Source of the DNA: Gamarada debralockiae
Taxonomy: Eukaryota > Ascomycota > Leotiomycetes > Helotiales > Hyphodiscaceae
Assembly (NCBI GenBank): GCA_002803225.1
Contig: NXFV01000050.1
Span: 1 to 64,000, forward strand
Length of the DNA: 64,000 bases
Direction: 5' to 3'
Part shown: positions 40,544-53,856 of the stretch, piece after piece
Numbering within the stretch: position 1 is the first letter of the stretch
How the letters are laid out: every line of letters starts with the position of its first letter
Program-made: the position numbers and the translations under genes
Notes under the pieces: generated by a model
Told to the model about the DNA's origin: nothing
The model's database searches: none
Seen by the model: only the letters and a program-made list of their open reading frames with translations

Positions 40544-40842
40544 TCACTGATAAGCATTGACTGATGAAGGCTTACTCATTAGCAACACTGATGGCTCCTG
40601 CCACATTCCCGGTAGGCTTGCGCTTGCCGAGTCTTTGTAGCTTGAACCGCTGAGCGATCTCAAGCTTTCAAGACCAGATGGCATTGAATTTGCCGATGAG
40701 CCTGCAACTCCCGCTCTAGGTGAATGGCTTTGCGCAGCCATCACTTCGGCTCTGAGCTTTCGAATGACGTCCTTATTTGCTTTCTCTAAAACCGGCAAAT
40801 TCTTGAATTTAAAATTTCTGAAATCATCCTCAACTTTCAGCA
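40544..40842 (-). pseudogene. Out-of-order Rim15 linker fragment
   Basis: A minus-strand open frame reads EDDFRNFKFKNLPVLEKAN, KDVIRKLRAEVMAAQ, then a Ser-rich tail. From memory of filamentous-fungal Rim15 kinases, the block DFRxFxFKNLPVLEKANKDV lies after the kinase domain and before the receiver domain. Here it lies downstream of a receiver domain (the fusion gene ends at 40830) in a different frame, overlapping its last codons. There is no start codon of its own and no kinase domain. It looks like a leftover from a local rearrangement or tandem duplication of a RIM15 copy. Confidence 0.6.
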
Positions 40843-43339
40843 ATATGCGAGTCTCGAAATTCTGTGTCTTCCGAATTTGGTTTCCAATGGCATAGACGAC
40901 GGAGTACCTCTGTGAGCTTTGACATAGTCAGCGGTTTCTCAATCAGAGCGTCAAAGGAGTGATTCGGCTGCAAATCCCTCAGGTATCCAGTAATCGCCAC
41001 AACTGGGGTGAGAGAATTGACATTTTCGTTGTCTCTGATGATTCGTGCCACATCAGTACCATTGGATGTGGGAAGTTTGATCTCCATCATAATGATATCG
41101 AATTTGATTTCGCTCACAGCATAGCGTATCGCTTCTTCACCGCTTGAGGCTGTGATTGTGCGGCAGCGAAGCTTTTCCAAGAGCTTCTCATGGACTATCC
41201 TTGATACTGGATGATCCTCACAAATGAGCACATCAAGAGGTCTGAAGACGGGATCGCTGAGACTGATTGTAGACAAGCGCCTTGACCTTTGATGGCGTCG
41301 CTGGACGCTTGGCAGGGCTTTGGCTCCGTCTTCATCATCTGACGGTGATGGAGACATATCGAACACCTGAGTCCTTGCGTTTTGACGACGTCGTTGAACA
41401 TATGGCAGCGTATTGACTTCGTCTTCCTCTTCACCATCAGATGGTGAATGCATATCGAACTCCTGGTGCCTCTTTTCTTCCCATGTGACTCTCTTAAAGG
41501 CAGCAATCTCTGTTTCCTGGAAAGGGGCTGCTGACTGACGCATGCGGTCTGCCATCAGTCTTTTCGAAATAGCTAGGTCATTGAATAGCACAGAATGACT
41601 ATCCTCTGTTGAGGGAACCACCGCCGGCAGAGGAGTTGAGGATGTCTCATTAGCGAGATGTTGAGGATGTTTCAGAACGGAAAGATATTTCCCACATACA
41701 GGGCTATATGCTCCAGTCAGCGGTAACCTCCCTCCTCAATACAGTAAACTTACCACATGCAGGTCGATTTCGCAGTCTCAAATTCAACGCGACCAGGACA
41801 CGCAGGATCTGCACATCTTCCCTGCTGAATAGCTTTGCCATCTAACAGCATCGCCATCGTAACCTTAGACTTAGGTTGAATAACTGCTCGCCACCCTTCC
41901 CTATTGATAGGATAGTTATTATACCCATTCATCACCATAAAGCGTTCGCGGAGTACCAAAGATAGTCCAGGGGAATTTTGGAAGCTATCAAGGAGAAAAT
42001 CGTAAAATATCTGGACCGATACTATTAGCGCAGTTCAACATTCTCGAAGGTAACATGTACATTCCAATGCTGGAATTGAGCACAAGGAAGCCTTTTGACT
42101 CGCCCAATAGCATCCTCAAAGAGAAAGTGGTCATTATACTGTATGAGACGCGGAACAGTATTCCTGTAGAATATAATCATGTAAGGTACAAGTATAAATC
42201 TGATCCATGTTAGTTTAGATTGGAATCTAGGGCATGATACATACACAAGCTCGCGAATCAAAAGATGAATACTTGATAGCAGAAGCCAAATGCTCTTCAG
42301 TATATTTTGAAGAGCTCTCTCGGCCTCCGGTTTGGATATATTGGGATCCACGTTAGGTTGAACACTAGAAAGGTCTTGCAAACAATCTCGTAGAGCCCCA
42401 ATTGAAGCATCCACCTGATCAAGTTTCTTATGGAGACTTGATGAATGTGCACGACCTTCCAACGCCTGCATCTGTATCGCTGTTGCAATATCCTCACCCG
42501 TTTGTGGAACATTATAGCTGACCAGGTCGGTAGAGGTTGAATGAGGGACAGACAGATCTTTGAGCTCTTCTTGCATATTCTTAGCTCTCTCGGTATGCTC
42601 TCTTTGCGGCATGAGAACTTGGCTGAGACGCCTTTCTAGCGTTGTGGTCGCCTCGTGGTCTTCAATCACAGTCACATGCACCTGTTCTGTAGATGTTCTC
42701 ATTTCTTGAACGTTCTGATGAATCATATATGCAGAGGCTGCTTGTGCTGCTGAAAGGGCGTCGATTTTATTTCCAAGCAGTGTGGTTGCCGGCATTATCC
42801 GTGTGTCAATCGCATGTGATATGCGATCCTGCATATCTCTTGGTAGATGAAGGGTAGTTTGGCTTCAGGAATATTAGCGATAATGGACGATAGACCCATT
42901 CCCTGAGTACGCACACAATTTGGTGGCCCAGAAGGATTCCAACAGCCGCCATGGGTACTGCTACCCGGTCTTGCAATTTCTTGACCTTCTTCGACGTTGA
43001 AAGTGCCCATTGTATCTTCCGTGGAGCAGTAAATATCTTTTTCCTCTTACTGTTTACACCTAAGGCCGACTCAAACCTTCTCCCGACATCGTTAAGGAAA
43101 GCTTGCAACGGCACCCGAATGTGGTCGCATTGTTCTCGCAGATTTTCAGCGAGATCAGAATCTAGGGGCGTAAGGTGCAGCGAGTTTAGATGCTGCAGCG
43201 TTCGTGAGAGGGTTTGAAGAAAGCACAGCGTGTCTCGGAAATCGGACGACGCGCCACCTGAATCTTTCAGCGCCGCGCCGATCTGTTGCAGTAATTTCAG
43301 CGAAGCAACGATATCGCCGGCTGACCAGCCAAAGGACAT
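40830..43339 (-). CDS. Ubiquitin-like/zinc-ribbon protein fused to a Rim15-type receiver domain
   Basis: Five exons join without a break to 758 residues: 43339-42915, 42862-42245, 42163-42061, 42010-41754 and 41703-40830. Residues 1-140 (MSFGWSAGDIVASLKLLQQI, then LSTSKKVKKLQDRVAVPM) match the N-terminal module of fungal NLR-like/ubiquitin-like-domain proteins. Residues 145-330 are coiled-coil-rich. Residues about 345-440 contain the ubiquitin-like domain (FEDAIGRVKRLP, WRAVIQPKSKVTMAMLL). A small Cys cluster, CADPACPG...CMCPVCG, follows. Residues about 622-745 form a receiver domain nearly identical in style to Rim15 (LDVLICEDHPVSRIVHEKLL, FDIIMMEIKLP, IEKPLTMSKLTEVL). The phospho-acceptor position is Glu (about 675), while the acidic pair and Lys (about 724) remain. 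The two parts are joined through a consensus GTAAGT intron that restores the ribbon. Expression is untested. Confidence 0.72.
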
Positions 43340-44615
43340 CGCTGGCAAGCCTCATCAGTTGGATGTGACAAAAAGTCGTGAGAGCCGATGACAATGTCGA
43401 AGCCGGTGGGGATGGATGCGAAAGAGGACGAGGGTCATTTGACTGGTTTCACTGCAGCCTTGTTAGAATACGGTGGGCTGTTTTGACCTCCTTGGCATGA
43501 CTACGAGATAAGTCACGTGCTATTGCAGCACTGCAGCCTCTACCTTGAGAATGGTCTATACGAGGGCCTGTAGTTGTACTAGTGTGCCAGCGCCAGGCGC
43601 ACAACACAAACCCAATAGTAACAGTATCAAGGTTGTTTTTTGTAGGCTTTCTACTATAAGTCATACATAGTTACAGGCACTACACGTATGCAGCAGGTGC
43701 ACCTTCACGTATATAAGAATGCACCTGCACGTGAGAGCTAGTCACATGATAGTTGATTTGGAAAACAATGTTTGCCAAGAGATTACGCGAGGCGGAAGGC
43801 CTCTGAGAGCTCAGTCAACAAATTTTTGGTGGGTTGGTGCCTCAGCAGGGCCCACTTCGTTACTGTCGGTAGTCTTAGAACAGTAACTCTTCCACTAAGT
43901 TACTAATTTATCAGAATGATTGGTAATCTGACCCATGACCTGCTTTGATAACAGGAGCTGGCATGGCCTTTCTAAGGATTTATCTAGTTCTCATATTGCG
44001 AAAATGATACACCAGATCACGTTTAGAGAATCTAAATTATTATTTAAGCTGGATGCTAGTGATTACAACTAGGCTCACAACGGAATATCACAAACCCTAC
44101 GTGCATAATTCGTTCAAGGCACCTATAGGATATATATTTTCTAATCATAACCTTGTTATTACTGGTACTTCTTCTGCCTGAAGCGAATCCTTCAAAAGAG
44201 GTTCCACGCTGATGGTGGATTCGGCAGACAAGTGACTGTGACTAGGCCCAAAGTGGAAAATCACAAACCCTGCCTGCATAATGCGGCGAGAAATCGCGAG
44301 ACCCTGGACGCTAAAATGGATTAGCATCGAAACTCTGTGGATTTATGAGACCTTTGCTAAACTGAACTATGTTGAGGAGCAACAATGTGTGGAACCCTCG
44401 GAGTTGAACATGCTAATCGCAGGCTCTTAGCATAGCAACGGAATGCCAATTATTACAAATCGAAGAAAGCTATAGAATGCTCTTCAATCAAGAGTGAGTG
44501 GTGCAGAACTGTATAAATTGACTTGGAATTCCACGTTAATCCCCACCAAACCAATAAACTTTCATCCAAACCATTCTATCCAAACAGTTCTGTCCAAACT
44601 CTCTTCAAAATAGAT
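43340..44615. other. Intergenic promoter region (divergent genes)
   Basis: This region lies between the minus-strand fusion gene and the plus-strand SDR. It contains repeated CACGTG-like words near 43690-43740. The direct near-repeat GGCCCAAAGTGGAAAATCACAAACCCT... at about 44240 versus ...CACAACGGAATATCACAAACCCTAC at 44075 is also here. No gene is supported. Confidence 0.4.
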
Positions 44616-48424: not shown

Positions 48425-49910
48425 CCACCAGGGGGTGCGCTAATTCCCGCACCAGCCCAATTAGCCGAACCGTAAATATCATCATAAATTCTGGCATGTA
48501 AACAACCACTTCTACATACAATATAGCAGTCAAAACACGCTCCAATTGTTACTACACTCCTCTACCTGATAAATTCAATGTCGATATACATACTACCCGA
48601 AAGAGAGTACGTTTCTATGATACCTAGGACCACAGATCGCCGACGCATACGCTAAGGGCCTTAGAGCGAGAATTTAGGCTCACCCATCCCAATAGTCAGC
48701 GCTGGCTCGACTAACGAGCTCACTATAGCTCTCCTGCATATCGAAGGACACGTAAGCTGTCAAACAACCTTAGTCCACATCCAAAAGTCTTAGTAGAGAC
48801 CTGCAAAATGCTTGTTTCTCCGTCTAAAAACAAGGTCTGCGACTAGTAATATGAAGCCTAAATTAAGTACCACAAATTGCCAGTTAAGAAGCGCGCACTA
48901 CAAAAGAGGCTTAAGCAATACACTAATAGAGGTTAGCGGTACAAAATAGTATATATTTAGAAGAAGATTTCGTAGAAGAACAAGGGCGAGAGGATACACT
49001 ATAGCGCAGCACACCTGCAATATACTGTCTATAACTACTAGTAGTACGTCTTCTTCACAGACGAGGCGTATATAGACCCTTTATCCCAAGGCGTAGGTTA
49101 TATACTTCAGGAGCAAGGACATCGAACAGACCCCAAAAACATACAAGAACGGGGCAAGAAGATGAGTATCAAGGTTTATATTACAGGGTAGTATAATTAG
49201 TAGTCTAAATATAAGAAATTAGAATTCTACAAAGACGAAGAAGCTTATACTAAGAAGCCTAAGAAGCCTAAGAAGCCTCCTAAGCCTCATCGACGACCTA
49301 TAACTAAGACTAAGGAAGAATATACTATTAGGGTAATAGAATAGGAAGCTTCTATTAGTCACGACAAAGAGGTCAAACCCAAGGGCAATGCTATAACACA
49401 AAAGTACTACGTCGATTGCCTTCTCCCTATTTATGTCGATGCTCTCTACAAAACACGTTTATAACCTAATAGGGAGCTCAAGCCTTAGATATTTCAAGAG
49501 GATAGTGACCCTAGTCACGGGAAAAGGAAGAGGGGGTTATCACAGCTCTATTTAGAGTCCAATTGGATACTAGTCCTCCGTCACCCTCCCTAATCACCTG
49601 ATCTCAATCCAATAGAGGCTTGTTAGAATATCCTTAAGATTAAAGTACGTAAAAGGCTGTAGCATAGTCTTGAGGAGTATAAGGAGGTTATACAAGACGA
49701 ATAGAGTAAAATTACTATAGTAGAGGTTCGTGCGCGTATCGCTGAGATACCAGATAGGTGTAAGAGAGTCGTGGAATCAAGGGGAGCACCGATTAAGAGT
49801 GATTTATAGTAATATTATAGATAATTAAGAAGAATACAGACTTTGTAGTACAATTTTTAGTGTTTTCGGCTGTTTCGGGCTGGTGCGGGAATTAGCGCAC
49901 CCCCTGGTGG
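48425..49910 (+). mobile_element. Tc1/mariner-type DNA transposon with 34-bp perfect TIRs
   Basis: The left end (48425-48458, starting CCACCAGGGGGTGCGC) and right end (49877-49910) are exact reverse complements over 34 bp. The 1486-bp element carries one plus-strand transposase frame with many TAG stops. It shows a first acidic residue in YVFFTDEAYIDP, a second in FQEDSDPSHGK, and HPP, stop, SPDLNPIEACWNILK near the third, as in fungal mariner transposases with DDE catalysis. The TAG stops where CAG is expected indicate RIP, so it is not autonomous, but its intact ends could be mobilised in trans. An obvious TA target duplication is not seen at these limits. The true ends may begin at CAGGGGG. 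Confidence 0.85.
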
Positions 49911-50031
49911 GCTGTCCCAGCTGATGACAAAGCATGCATCAAACAAGCCCGCAGCCTCGCTGTCCGCTTTCTTCACTCTAACTCCACAAAGAGTAGCCAG
50001 CGGGCAGGAAGAGCGTCACCACACAGCAGCC

Positions 50032-51942
50032 ATGGACTCCTTCGATGTCGGAGCCTTCAAATACCAACCGCTCACGCATCACGATTCAATCCGACTCATT
50101 CTCCTACAGCCTGACCTTCCAGGTTCACACGTCAAGTGCAGCCTGGAGTACACCACCCTCGAAGAGTGTCGCAATGACATCTACGACCAATATACCGCGC
50201 TTTCATACGTCTGGGGTAATGCTACAGACCAGAGAGTTATTTCACTTGACGACCAGTCTTTCAACGTCACTGCAAATCTTGCGGCTGCTTTAAATGATTT
50301 AAGACACGAGAGCAAAGTTCTTCGCCTTTGGGCCGACGCAGTTTGCATTGATCAATCCAACCTACAGGAGCGAAATCAGCAAGTCACTCTTATGAGGCAA
50401 ATATACGCTCTTGCTCAACAAACAGTTATTTACTTGGGCTCCTCCAACGCGGAGGATGAGGCTGTCTTTGCAGTTCTGAGCTCATTAAAAGCTACGGAGA
50501 ATGACTTGATCACAGCGGAGTTAATCGAAGGAGCTACCAGGCGTATTCTAGCAAGCCCTTGGTTCACAAGAGTTTGGGTGTATCAAGAGCTGGTTCTGTC
50601 GAAGGAAGCGTGGGTTCAACTCGGAAGGCAGCGAGTTGAGTGGGAGCCTCTCTGTGCCAAATTGCTTGCCGATGATACACGATTGCACCCAAACGAAGCT
50701 GGGTATGAGAGACTGGAATTACTTTCACATATGCGAAACGCACGACAAAAGTTTAAGATCAGTCTGCTCGGAGGAGCGGGTCCGCCGTCTTTATTTGAGA
50801 TCCTTCTATCTAGACGTGGACTCGGAGTATGTGACTCCCGAGACATAGTATATGGCCATCTTGCGGTGGCTGACACGGCCAAATCTTGCGAGAGTGGCTT
50901 GCAGAATATTGCGATGCCCGTCGTCGATTATCAGAAAAGTCTCATTGACGTGTTCACCGACGCAACTTGCCACATTCTAGCATCTTCTGGGAGTCAGGAA
51001 GTGCTACTCTATGTGGATGTCATGGAACCTTCATGTCGAACACAAGGTCTTCCATCATGGGTGCCCGACTGGTCCTTGGGCTCTTCACACTACGCCCCTC
51101 GAATTCCTCCTAGAATCTACCATCATGGCAATGGTAAACTTTCGACGGGTGCGGTAGTAGATATCGATGGACGAGCAATGTTGGCATTTACTGGTAATGC
51201 GGTAGGAGTCGTCCAATGGGTATTCCCCGAATCTGTAGACGATCCTGACGTGACTGAACTTTATGATTCTCTGGAGTCTGCGGGATTTTTAGAAACAAAA
51301 TACGCTTTGGACATATACTGCAGGGCATATGTTTCCCATCGAGAATATGGTAGAAACATGGACAACCTCCACTTGAGTCCAGGACGAGACGGTCATGAGG
51401 TCCCCGAAGAACTTAGATACGTTTCTGCCCTGATGAATGACGTCTTGAAACAAACACCAAAATTTCGAGAACGGTATGAGAAACCAGTCGGTCTGAAATC
51501 CCTCAAGCGCCTATTATCCCCATCTCTAGACACGGTGTCGTCTGCAAGGCAAAGGGGAGGAGTAAACTTCTTCAGACGGAACAGTATCCTGCGTGGAAGA
51601 AGGATTGCGATCTTCTCCGGAGGACGAGTTGGAATAGTGCCAGCAGCAACTCTTCCAGCTGATCGCATTTATTTTCATCCCCTTGACAAGAAAGAATGCC
51701 ATTTTCTGGTGGTCCGGCCATCCCGCGAACGCCAACCATGGTGGATAGAGATGGAATTGAGAAGAAAGCTTCCATTTCTTCCGAGTACTCAACAAGGCGA
51801 AGAGATCACAATCCACCACTATACCTTTGTTGGCGTTTGCTGGATTGCAGCGAGCTGGGACATTTCTAGACGGGTATATGACCCAGACTTCAGACTTGAC
51901 GATAAGAATTTCGAAAATCTGAGCATATTTGTGCTGCACTAA
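50032..51942 (+). CDS. HET-domain (heterokaryon incompatibility) protein
   Basis: A single exon. I choose the ATG at 50032 (MDSFDVGAFKYQPL, context CAGCCATGG), giving 636 residues. An in-frame ATG at 49924 would add 36 residues, but it lies only 14 bp from the mariner end. The HET domain occupies about residues 45-190: YTALSYVWGN, ITANLAAAL-type VTANLAAALNDLR, LWADAVCIDQSNLQERNQQV and MRQIYALAQQTVIYLGSS. The W-V-YQEL block (WFTRVWVYQELVLSKEAW) follows. The rest is the variable C-terminal half with RGLGVCDSRDIVYGHLAV, typical of the family. HET proteins trigger growth arrest or cell death after nonself recognition. No STAND or other partner domain is fused. The native promoter may have been separated from the gene by the transposon. 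Confidence 0.92.
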   Translation: MDSFDVGAFKYQPLTHHDSIRLILLQPDLPGSHVKCSLEYTTLEECRNDIYDQYTALSYVWGNATDQRVISLDDQSFNVTANLAAALNDLRHESKVLRLWADAVCIDQSNLQERNQQVTLMRQIYALAQQTVIYLGSSNAEDEAVFAVLSSLKATENDLITAELIEGATRRILASPWFTRVWVYQELVLSKEAWVQLGRQRVEWEPLCAKLLADDTRLHPNEAGYERLELLSHMRNARQKFKISLLGGAGPPSLFEILLSRRGLGVCDSRDIVYGHLAVADTAKSCESGLQNIAMPVVDYQKSLIDVFTDATCHILASSGSQEVLLYVDVMEPSCRTQGLPSWVPDWSLGSSHYAPRIPPRIYHHGNGKLSTGAVVDIDGRAMLAFTGNAVGVVQWVFPESVDDPDVTELYDSLESAGFLETKYALDIYCRAYVSHREYGRNMDNLHLSPGRDGHEVPEELRYVSALMNDVLKQTPKFRERYEKPVGLKSLKRLLSPSLDTVSSARQRGGVNFFRRNSILRGRRIAIFSGGRVGIVPAATLPADRIYFHPLDKKECHFLVVRPSRERQPWWIEMELRRKLPFLPSTQQGEEITIHHYTFVGVCWIAASWDISRRVYDPDFRLDDKNFENLSIFVLH

Positions 51943-52124: not shown

Positions 52125-53856
52125 TTAATCTCTACATCCATGCAACAATGCTGGAGAATCACTACAGCCCTGCACAAAGCTTCCAGCAACAATCGAGCTT
52201 AACCCTAGGATAGCCGTCCAAGGGTTCTTCAGCATCCCAAAATCAACTTCCACCTTTGAGTCGGTCGATGAGAGTGACCCGTGTTCGGCACCAGTATCAT
52301 TCCAGTTCTCATGGACTGTGGTCGATTGGGAAAGAGTGAAACCTGCAGCTTGCCATGTTGTTCGAAGAGCCAGCATCGTCATCGCGGCCATCAATTGAGC
52401 CACAGCGAATGTGTTCGGTCTGAGTATCATCTTGATCAAAGCATTGGAAGCCAGAGCTGCAATCGCTGCTCTCTCGAGCGTGATGTATGCGAAGCCGTAC
52501 AGAGCCAGTATCGAGATGCCAACAACTGCATTGAAGATGGCGGAGCGAAGCTGGATTGAGATTCTACTGGCGTTGTGATTTCCACAACAGCCAGCAAAGT
52601 GGCAACCAACCCGTCCAACGGCTTCTGCAACAGGAAGGGCGATAGCGAGGCAGAGAAATAGTCGGTAGCGGTCGACCAGCGGAGATATAGCGACGCTCAG
52701 AGAGATTGCGACCATAGCGCCTTGGATCCAAAGACCTGTTGCGGAGAAGATCTTTGGACTCAAAATTGCTTTGGGTCCATTCTGAGAGAGGATTGATGGG
52801 ATGCGAGCGCCAACAAAGGCAGCCAGACCAATGAACAGAAGTTGCAGATTCAACTTGGAAATATCCCCCGAGCTCAGCAGCGTTGGCGAACCTTGAATAT
52901 AGACGTTTGATGCCAGAACAGCGTCAGAGAACGAGGCAACCCCAAAAAAGAATCCGTAAAGCGAGATGTCGAATCTCTGGGCGACTCTCACATGAGCTGG
53001 CTTTGTGTCGACGAGTTTGAAAATCTCCAGACGCCTCACGACGTTGATGATGACACATTGAACCTCGTGTAAATGAACGGACACGTTGCGTTCGCCCAGA
53101 AAACGGGATCGGTAATCGAATGCATGGGCAAGAACGTCGCAGCATAGAGCGAAGGTGGGAGCCGGACGAGGACAAGGAGGAACCATTTTGTCGTCTGGAC
53201 TCTGTACGCCAGCGACGAGCTTTCGGGTTTCAGACCATGCAGCGTGACCAAAAATGCTGTATCTGAAAACAGCTCGGTGATCAGAGAAGCGTAGAATGTG
53301 TATATGATACACAGAGGCGGGCCAGCTTGGAGATGGTATATCAGATATCCAAGTGAAGCGAGAAGATGTGTGATGTATTTGCTGCTACGATGGAGGCGAT
53401 TGAACTCAGAGACCCAGAGCACACCTCGAGATGCCATGCAGGTTTGCCCTGCGGCTGAGGAGTGCGGATTTCCAAGAATATCGTTGATTTCGGAGGAATC
53501 TTGAAGTGCTTTGTAGCATGTTGGAGCTGAGGAGAGGGTGATGAAGATTCCCATCATGAAAGCGAAGTATTGAAGGTCTTTTCTGTCGCGGTAGAGCTTG
53601 TCGTAGAATTCGGGGTGGAGGCGTCGGAAGGTCTTTTTGATGAGTCGCTCGACGACGAAATAGGCAGTCAGATAAAGCAGCAATGCTGGAAAGGATAGAA
53701 GGTATATTCAGAAGCAAATATCTCCATAACTGCGACTTTCAATTACCAAAAATTTATGCGGTGAGGTGACCAGGAAGCCTGAATACGGAGGTTGTTTATC
53801 TCGAATAAACAACGGAGAGGTACAGAACTTGTACAAGTACCTTCGTTCCGGGACAT
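52125..53856 (-). CDS. Polytopic membrane protein, TLC-like plus Lgt-like halves
   Basis: Exons 53856-53841 (tentative), 53685-53085 and 53034-52125 join to about 508 residues. The first half (YLTAYFVVERLIKK, HPEFYDKLYRDRKDLQYF, CMASRGVLWVSEFNRLHRSS, ITHLLASLGYLIYHLQAGPP) resembles TRAM-LAG-CLN8 (TLC) membrane proteins. The second half has several membrane helices and ALPVAEAVGRVGCHFAGCCG near residue 350. That pattern is characteristic of prolipoprotein-diacylglyceryl-transferase-like (Lgt) sequences (GRxGCFxxGCC). TLC proteins act in lipid or membrane homeostasis. Lgt enzymes transfer diacylglycerol in bacteria, and fungi have no known lipoprotein substrate. The function is unknown. The joining intron (AC|G) keeps the frame and has a GTGTCC donor; the first mini-exon (MSRNE) is a guess. 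Confidence 0.68.

Follow-up and report, generated by a model that had tools for sequence, protein, structure and literature searches.

The window analysed here is a stretch of 64,000 nucleotides from the fungus Gamarada debralockiae (contig NXFV01000050.1, positions 1 to 64,000). On its minus strand lies a gene of five exons (43339-40830) whose frame starts with MSFGWSAGD and stays open as far as the stop codon TGA (40832-40830). The coordinates, strand, exon number and single frame of 758 codons given in the original prediction are all present, and the gene has both features that it had named, the ribbon (CADPACPG...CMCPVCG) and a receiver of Rim15 type. The encoded domains are, in order, an N-terminal domain, a coiled middle, a ULD_2 domain, a zinc ribbon, the motif EIAAFKRV, a partial Rim15 linker and a Rim15 receiver. 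Exon 1 (42915-43339) encodes the N-terminal helical domain (MSFGWSAGDI...), which is similar to a domain in the database protein P0013. Exon 2 (42245-42862) encodes the coiled middle region and, by comparison with homologues, ends in a hydrophobic stretch. Exon 3 (42061-42199) contains ILVPYMIIFYR and the start of the ULD, and exon 4 (41754-42010), from Pfam and the gene model, holds the remainder of ULD_2 and the first ribbon half (CADPACPG, 41815-41792). The derived coordinates of the ULD_2 domain are 41843-42132 (Pfam E 4e-16), interrupted by the intron at 42060-42011. Exon 5 (40830-41703) contains the second ribbon half, EIAAFKRV, the Rim15 linker and receiver, and the stop.

With the last intron held fixed, 138 combinations of canonical introns within the searched intervals yield an open product. 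An open frame alone is therefore weak evidence, and the choice among models was made by the homologues. Placing intron 2 at 42244-42200 (45 nt, GTATGT...CTAAC...CAG) revises the 5' boundary of exon 3 and gives a product of 770 residues in place of the earlier 758. The longer model scores higher with all four homologues tested, P0001, P0002, P0003 and P0006 (649 versus 625, 597 versus 577, 498 versus 474 and 399 versus 380 bits), because these relatives have the hydrophobic stretch (LLAPYL...) that the earlier intron cuts out. From these comparisons we favour the 770-residue model. For the 758-residue product Pfam gives just two matches above cut-off, ULD_2 (PF22893, 59.4 bits against a cut-off of 24.5) and Response_reg (E 1e-12). 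The N-terminal domain, ribbon and FKRV motif of the ULD_2 family are present as in the relatives. The same scan gave no match to a protein kinase domain and none to NACHT, NB-ARC or any other nucleotide-binding domain, so the protein is not an NLR.

The chimeric join had been placed at the intron at 41753-41704, but this intron sits within the zinc ribbon (between CMC and PVCG) and is the scaffold's own, as its splicing restores CMCPVCGK like that of P0001 and P0003. The join lies near 41463, in exon 5 and about 80 codons past the intron, at the end of EIAAFKRVTWEEKRHQ (41463-41510), a motif that is conserved in the relatives and stands directly before the module. At this point the close likeness to P0001 fades and the likeness to Rim15 starts, with no stop in between. 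Since the join is within one open exon, the chimera needs no splice and cannot be explained by the merging of two gene models, and since exon 5 opens with the second ribbon half, it is scaffold-derived from its first codon. It also follows that RT-PCR across the 41753-41704 intron would be uninformative on the chimera. The position of the join inside one exon leads us to reject a reading as two genes. An assembly misjoin is rejected because the receiver is only 72% identical to the sole Rim15-like locus found in the genome, and chance likeness by the match of the last exon to that locus (E 7e-72). Between 38500 and 45500 there are no inverted repeats, and the only direct repeats are a 55-nt pair (44058, 44231) and a 20-nt pair in exon 5 (41630, 41655); the repeat scan of the flanks found a single short tandem array, at 44564. 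That the fusion of a ULD_2 scaffold and a Rim15 piece is real we regard as virtually certain.

The module behind the join begins with a duplicated linker. The first copy (EFDMHSPSD...VQRRRQ, 41370-41462) has about 70% DNA identity to the second (QVFDMSPSPSD..., 41247-41369), which matches Rim15. The receiver domain follows at 40878-41246, as identified by the Rim15 match in the same genome, Pfam and trees. Just past the stop, in another frame, is a kinase-tail piece of Rim15 (EDDFRNFKFKNLPVLEKANKDVIRK, 40834-40727), 86% identical to Rim15 over 36 residues. The order is permuted here, since in Rim15 this piece precedes the receiver. Such an order would arise, we infer, if the 3' half of Rim15 passed through a tandem or circular form. 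The stretch after the tail piece was also compared with the Rim15 C-terminus and was set aside as too weak (E 7.4).

The whole assembly (54.3 Mb, 1112 contigs) was searched for the source of the receiver. Among the best candidates scored, a single Rim15-like locus matches the last exon. It lies on contig C141, and its frame contains kinase motifs and a receiver by eye; four other matches, the window itself aside, are at 28-32%. The last 214 residues match 126 database proteins, the best 120 of which are considered here. Among the matches listed, P0102 and P0107 join the receiver to other domains and P0155 and P0156 are histidine kinases. The rest of those listed have Response_reg with or without kinase domains and many are named RIM15; the sequence of six was inspected. 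P0107, a JGI protein, has stretches that match Abp2 and an EH domain and one that resembles a zinc finger, then a Rim15 linker and receiver; it has no ULD match.

Receiver phylogenies were made from 114 rows (a quick tree, 120 gathered and 6 short ones dropped) and from 38 rows hand-picked from the gathered receivers (a careful tree). In both, the window receiver falls within those of Rim15, as a long branch of uncertain exact placement. The branch length is 0.32 against a median of 0.042, about eight times the median. In the 38-row tree the receivers of the window and P0102 are sisters at 80/78, a grouping that is not secure. A single origin of the three non-Rim15 receivers (window, P0102 and P0107) was weakly disfavoured (p-AU 0.048). 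Rim15, a Greatwall-type kinase, has in Ascomycota a receiver that mostly bears Glu for the phosphorylated Asp, His at DD+1 and Leu at K-3, according to the part of the source available (PMC8510515). The same part gives the role of the Rim15 receiver itself as unstudied (PMC8510515). By eye, the window receiver shows all three marks: Glu in place of the phosphorylated Asp, a His next to the acidic pair, and a Leu three residues ahead of the Lys. The claim of a chimeric gene is upheld by the nesting of the receiver within those of Rim15 and by its Ascomycota Rim15 residues. The window protein is like Rim15 in receiver sequence and linker, and differs in having no kinase domain, in its ULD scaffold and in its long branch. 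The predicted structure adds little detail, with a pLDDT of 39.5 from the single sequence and a mean of 55.6, moderate only, with 36 rows; the best Foldseek matches of the latter model are receivers, none with E <= 0.001.

Over 122 codons the window receiver differs from the Rim15 receiver of the same genome with a pS of 0.78, which is saturated, and a pN of 0.14. By codon position the differences number 18, 16 and 71 (third position 71 of 105), and there is no stop codon within the receiver. Saturated synonymous and few replacement differences indicate that the receiver is neither a misjoin nor old debris. Repeat-induced point mutation as the source of the synonymous divergence is unsupported, with 50 transitions against 55 transversions. 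The receiver has 46 strongly conserved columns (conservation of 97% or more across 111 reference rows), of which the window keeps 44; its 2 differences there compare with 3 each in P0102 and P0107 and with 0 or 1 in three long-branched Rim15 rows. The columns at which the window departs from consensus, 29 in number, are variable ones, with a mean entropy of 1.37 against 0.74 for random positions (none of 5000 draws was as high), and 8 of the 29 departing residues are absent from every reference row. The tail piece is constrained as well, with 4, 3 and 16 differences by codon position over 35 codons. Because the piece is constrained despite its position past the stop, part of the constraint at the locus may predate the present gene structure. 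The locus contains one continuous open gene model with a Rim15-derived receiver under coding constraint since the split from Rim15, a constraint that a pairwise comparison of window and Rim15 cannot place wholly after the capture.

Relatives of the scaffold number, at E <= 0.001, at least 30 with the protein as query and at least 17 with an alignment as query. In both searches scoring was limited to the 7990 candidates with the most words in common, and family members may thus be missed. The named organisms among P0001-P0008 are all Helotiales. It had been supposed that proteins of this family usually end after the ribbon. This does not hold for P0001-P0008, all of which reach an FKRV-type motif, as does the window, and seven of the eight run on beyond it. 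P0007 ends five residues past the motif. P0010 (ATP12-ULD) was left out because it is probably a merged annotation, and P0009 and P0036 because they are distant.

What follows the motif varies among these relatives. P0001 (Phialocephala subalpina PAC_18061), the closest of them with 57-58% identity across 598 alignment columns, continues with SH3 and WW domains; its SH3 part is 64% identical to a gene on C861 of the G. debralockiae genome that has SH3, WW, RasGEF_N and RasGEF. P0006, whose gene model is without the second ULD half and the ribbon, continues with an FHA domain that is 54% identical to an FHA protein on C846 of that genome. The solved structures nearest to this FHA module are SLMAP and Vps64 (PDB). 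P0003 continues with a fragment of which pieces match a gene on C68 at 62% and 71% identity; we take fragment and gene to belong to the RfeG family. As names for the SH3-WW-RasGEF and FHA gene types we presume Cdc25 and STRIPAK, respectively. P0008 has a weak match of 37-38% to C948 after the motif, and the C-termini of P0002, P0004 (last 169 residues searched) and P0005 gave no origin match. The modules of the window, P0001, P0006, P0003 and P0008 match their own donor-like loci in five of five comparisons and those of the others in none of 20, where the loci lie in the window's genome and stand for donor families, not for the actual donors.

In the G. debralockiae genome PF22893 has 29 matches on 25 contigs, the window among them. 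The downstream DNA was inspected at 12 ULD_2 loci (11 of the 25 contigs and C806). An FKR or FKH motif is present at six of them (C716, C755, C806, C63, C352 and C779); three other loci, on C1107, C271 and C384, have an FRRV variant. Ankyrin repeats follow the motif at C63 by Pfam, and ankyrin-like sequence by eye at C352 and C779; at C755 no Pfam match was found after the motif. At C224, C659, C1019, C347 and C960 no such motif was seen by eye, and the C-termini are proline-, serine- or charge-rich. A second ULD_2 locus with a captured core-gene fragment was not found among the loci inspected in this genome.

Some further observations concern these loci and their surroundings. At C806 the motif (DIQAFKHVTW) is followed by sequence reminiscent of the SesB hydrolase of fungal NLRs, with no Pfam match. 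The ULD_2 locus on C775 (3318-5614) has, about 0.6 kb downstream, frames with a match to NPHP3_N above cut-off and one to a winged-helix model below it. In the window, an open frame with a HET (heterokaryon incompatibility) domain lies at 49861-51942 on the plus strand, about 6.5 kb from the fusion, and an ankyrin-repeat open frame of 694 residues at 507-2591 on the same strand. An open frame on the minus strand (52125-53384) matches LGT, prolipoprotein diacylglyceryl transferase, over cut-off (E 4e-8), a family that is unexpected in a fungus.

The strongest evidence on the relation of scaffold and module comes from two comparisons. Over ULD and ribbon the window is 72% identical to P0001, and the two have different modules; over the same part it is 28% identical to P0102, and the two have the same Rim15 linker and receiver. 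This contrast indicates that scaffold and module move independently. P0102 is a JGI protein with ULD_2 and Response_reg whose only database label is 'CheY-like chemotaxis protein'. Because the window and P0102 receivers are possible sisters, one shared capture of Rim15 is possible and a second capture is not required. The site after the motif is very probably an integration slot that has taken up pieces of different core regulators across species of the subfamily. In the literature searched (the top of longer result lists, mostly outside subscription papers and preprints) we found no description of ULD_2 proteins as integration hotspots or of this architecture. The statement that no described protein has this architecture accordingly stands for that literature, but not for the protein databases, in which P0102 has ULD_2 and the Rim15 receiver.

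Similar arrangements are known from immune receptors. In grasses, as reported in the accessible part of one study, MIC1 receptors have varied domains directly after a conserved motif of 43 residues (PMC5819176). The window protein resembles them in that foreign domains stand directly behind a conserved motif on homologous proteins; it differs in that the MIC1 proteins are plant NB-LRR receptors, whereas here no NB domain was found and a part in immunity is putative. In Sordariales, going by the portion of the report at hand, NLRs have kinase domains derived from CHK-2 as putative decoys (PMC12258605). These are likewise fungal, their C-terminal domain stems from a core gene of signalling, and a decoy role is proposed for it, but they are NACHT NLRs, whereas the window protein is without NACHT and its relatives draw on several donor families. 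Among fungal ULD_2 proteins (PF22893) the window protein shares the N-terminal domain, coiled region, ULD, zinc ribbon and FKRV-type motif; its relatives stop there or bear ankyrin or other modules, whereas it bears the Rim15 receiver. P0013, from Penicillium, matches the N-terminal part at 37%; it contains NPHP3_N above cut-off, a NACHT match slightly under it, and ankyrin repeats. The likeness of the N-terminal domain to the one before the NACHT-type domain of P0013 places the family near NLR-type proteins. Pfam SesA matches P0006 and P0031 below cut-off.

On the proposed mechanism, the N-terminal part and ULD would do the signalling in a protein of immunity or allorecognition that is NLR-like. 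The receiver would be a bait, mimicking a cell component that is bound or attacked by a factor of an invader or an incompatible partner, and contact with the bait would release the signal. The module derives from another gene, as expected for an integrated decoy, and the scaffold is presumably a receptor. The proposal of an integrated decoy is strengthened indirectly by the varied modules captured at the same site in relatives, while the decoy function itself stays conjectural. Given the slot, a bait role seems somewhat probable; the full reading, with a slot-type ULD_2 scaffold, a Rim15 linker and receiver behind the motif and the receiver as bait, we consider evenly poised. By analogy with the grass and Sordariales receptors a bait would be the most likely role, with an adaptor or competitor second and no function third.

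As an adaptor or dominant interferer, the receiver would bring the ULD scaffold to the partners of Rim15 or compete with Rim15, and so tune quiescence or stress signalling; the modules of relatives would do likewise for Ras (SH3-WW) and STRIPAK (FHA). The retention of 44 of the 46 strongly conserved columns speaks for this, as does the derivation of three modules from signalling regulators. The retained Glu, typical of Ascomycota Rim15 in the part of the source available (PMC8510515), fits binding over phosphotransfer. However, variation of the module among close scaffolds is a feature of recognition more than of a regulatory circuit that is fixed, and the N-terminal domain resembles one on an NLR-like protein. 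We consider this role unlikely, though plausible. Still less probable is a non-adaptive origin, in which a C-terminus tolerant of replacement reads into scraps of duplicated genes and the modules are idle. Several Rim15 scraps are indeed at the locus (the duplicated linker, the receiver and the displaced kinase-tail piece), the C-termini of three relatives are without matched origin, and the receiver is long-branched with its 8 private residues. Against such idleness speak the saturated synonymous sites with a low pN, the stop-free receiver with its changes at positions variable in Rim15, and the presence of the same module on two distant scaffolds. A split into two genes, or an artefact of assembly or annotation, is a negligible prospect: the displaced piece past the stop does show that the locus is rearranged, but the join lies in an exon that opens with the second ribbon half, the 72% identity to one Rim15-like locus speaks against misjoined reads, and P0102 has the same domain pair.

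More tentatively than the slot itself, the ULD_2 proteins may be a dedicated family of slot receptors outside the NLR class, a fungal parallel of the grass MIC1/CID arrangement. In such a family EIAAFKRV would mark the place where fragments of Rim15, of Cdc25-type RasGEF, of Vps64/SLMAP and of other genes are inserted again and again and swapped as baits; distant scaffolds would have acquired the Rim15 receiver or handed it on to one another. If the slot is true, motif-marked integration hotspots have arisen beyond plants and beyond the NLRs, and further ULD_2 genes are expected to end in fragments of other core regulators. To our knowledge, little is known about which core pathways of fungi are targets of fungal parasites or serve in self/non-self recognition. 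If the slot is true, the captured modules would be a readout of such pathways, with the nutrient kinase, Ras and STRIPAK among them.
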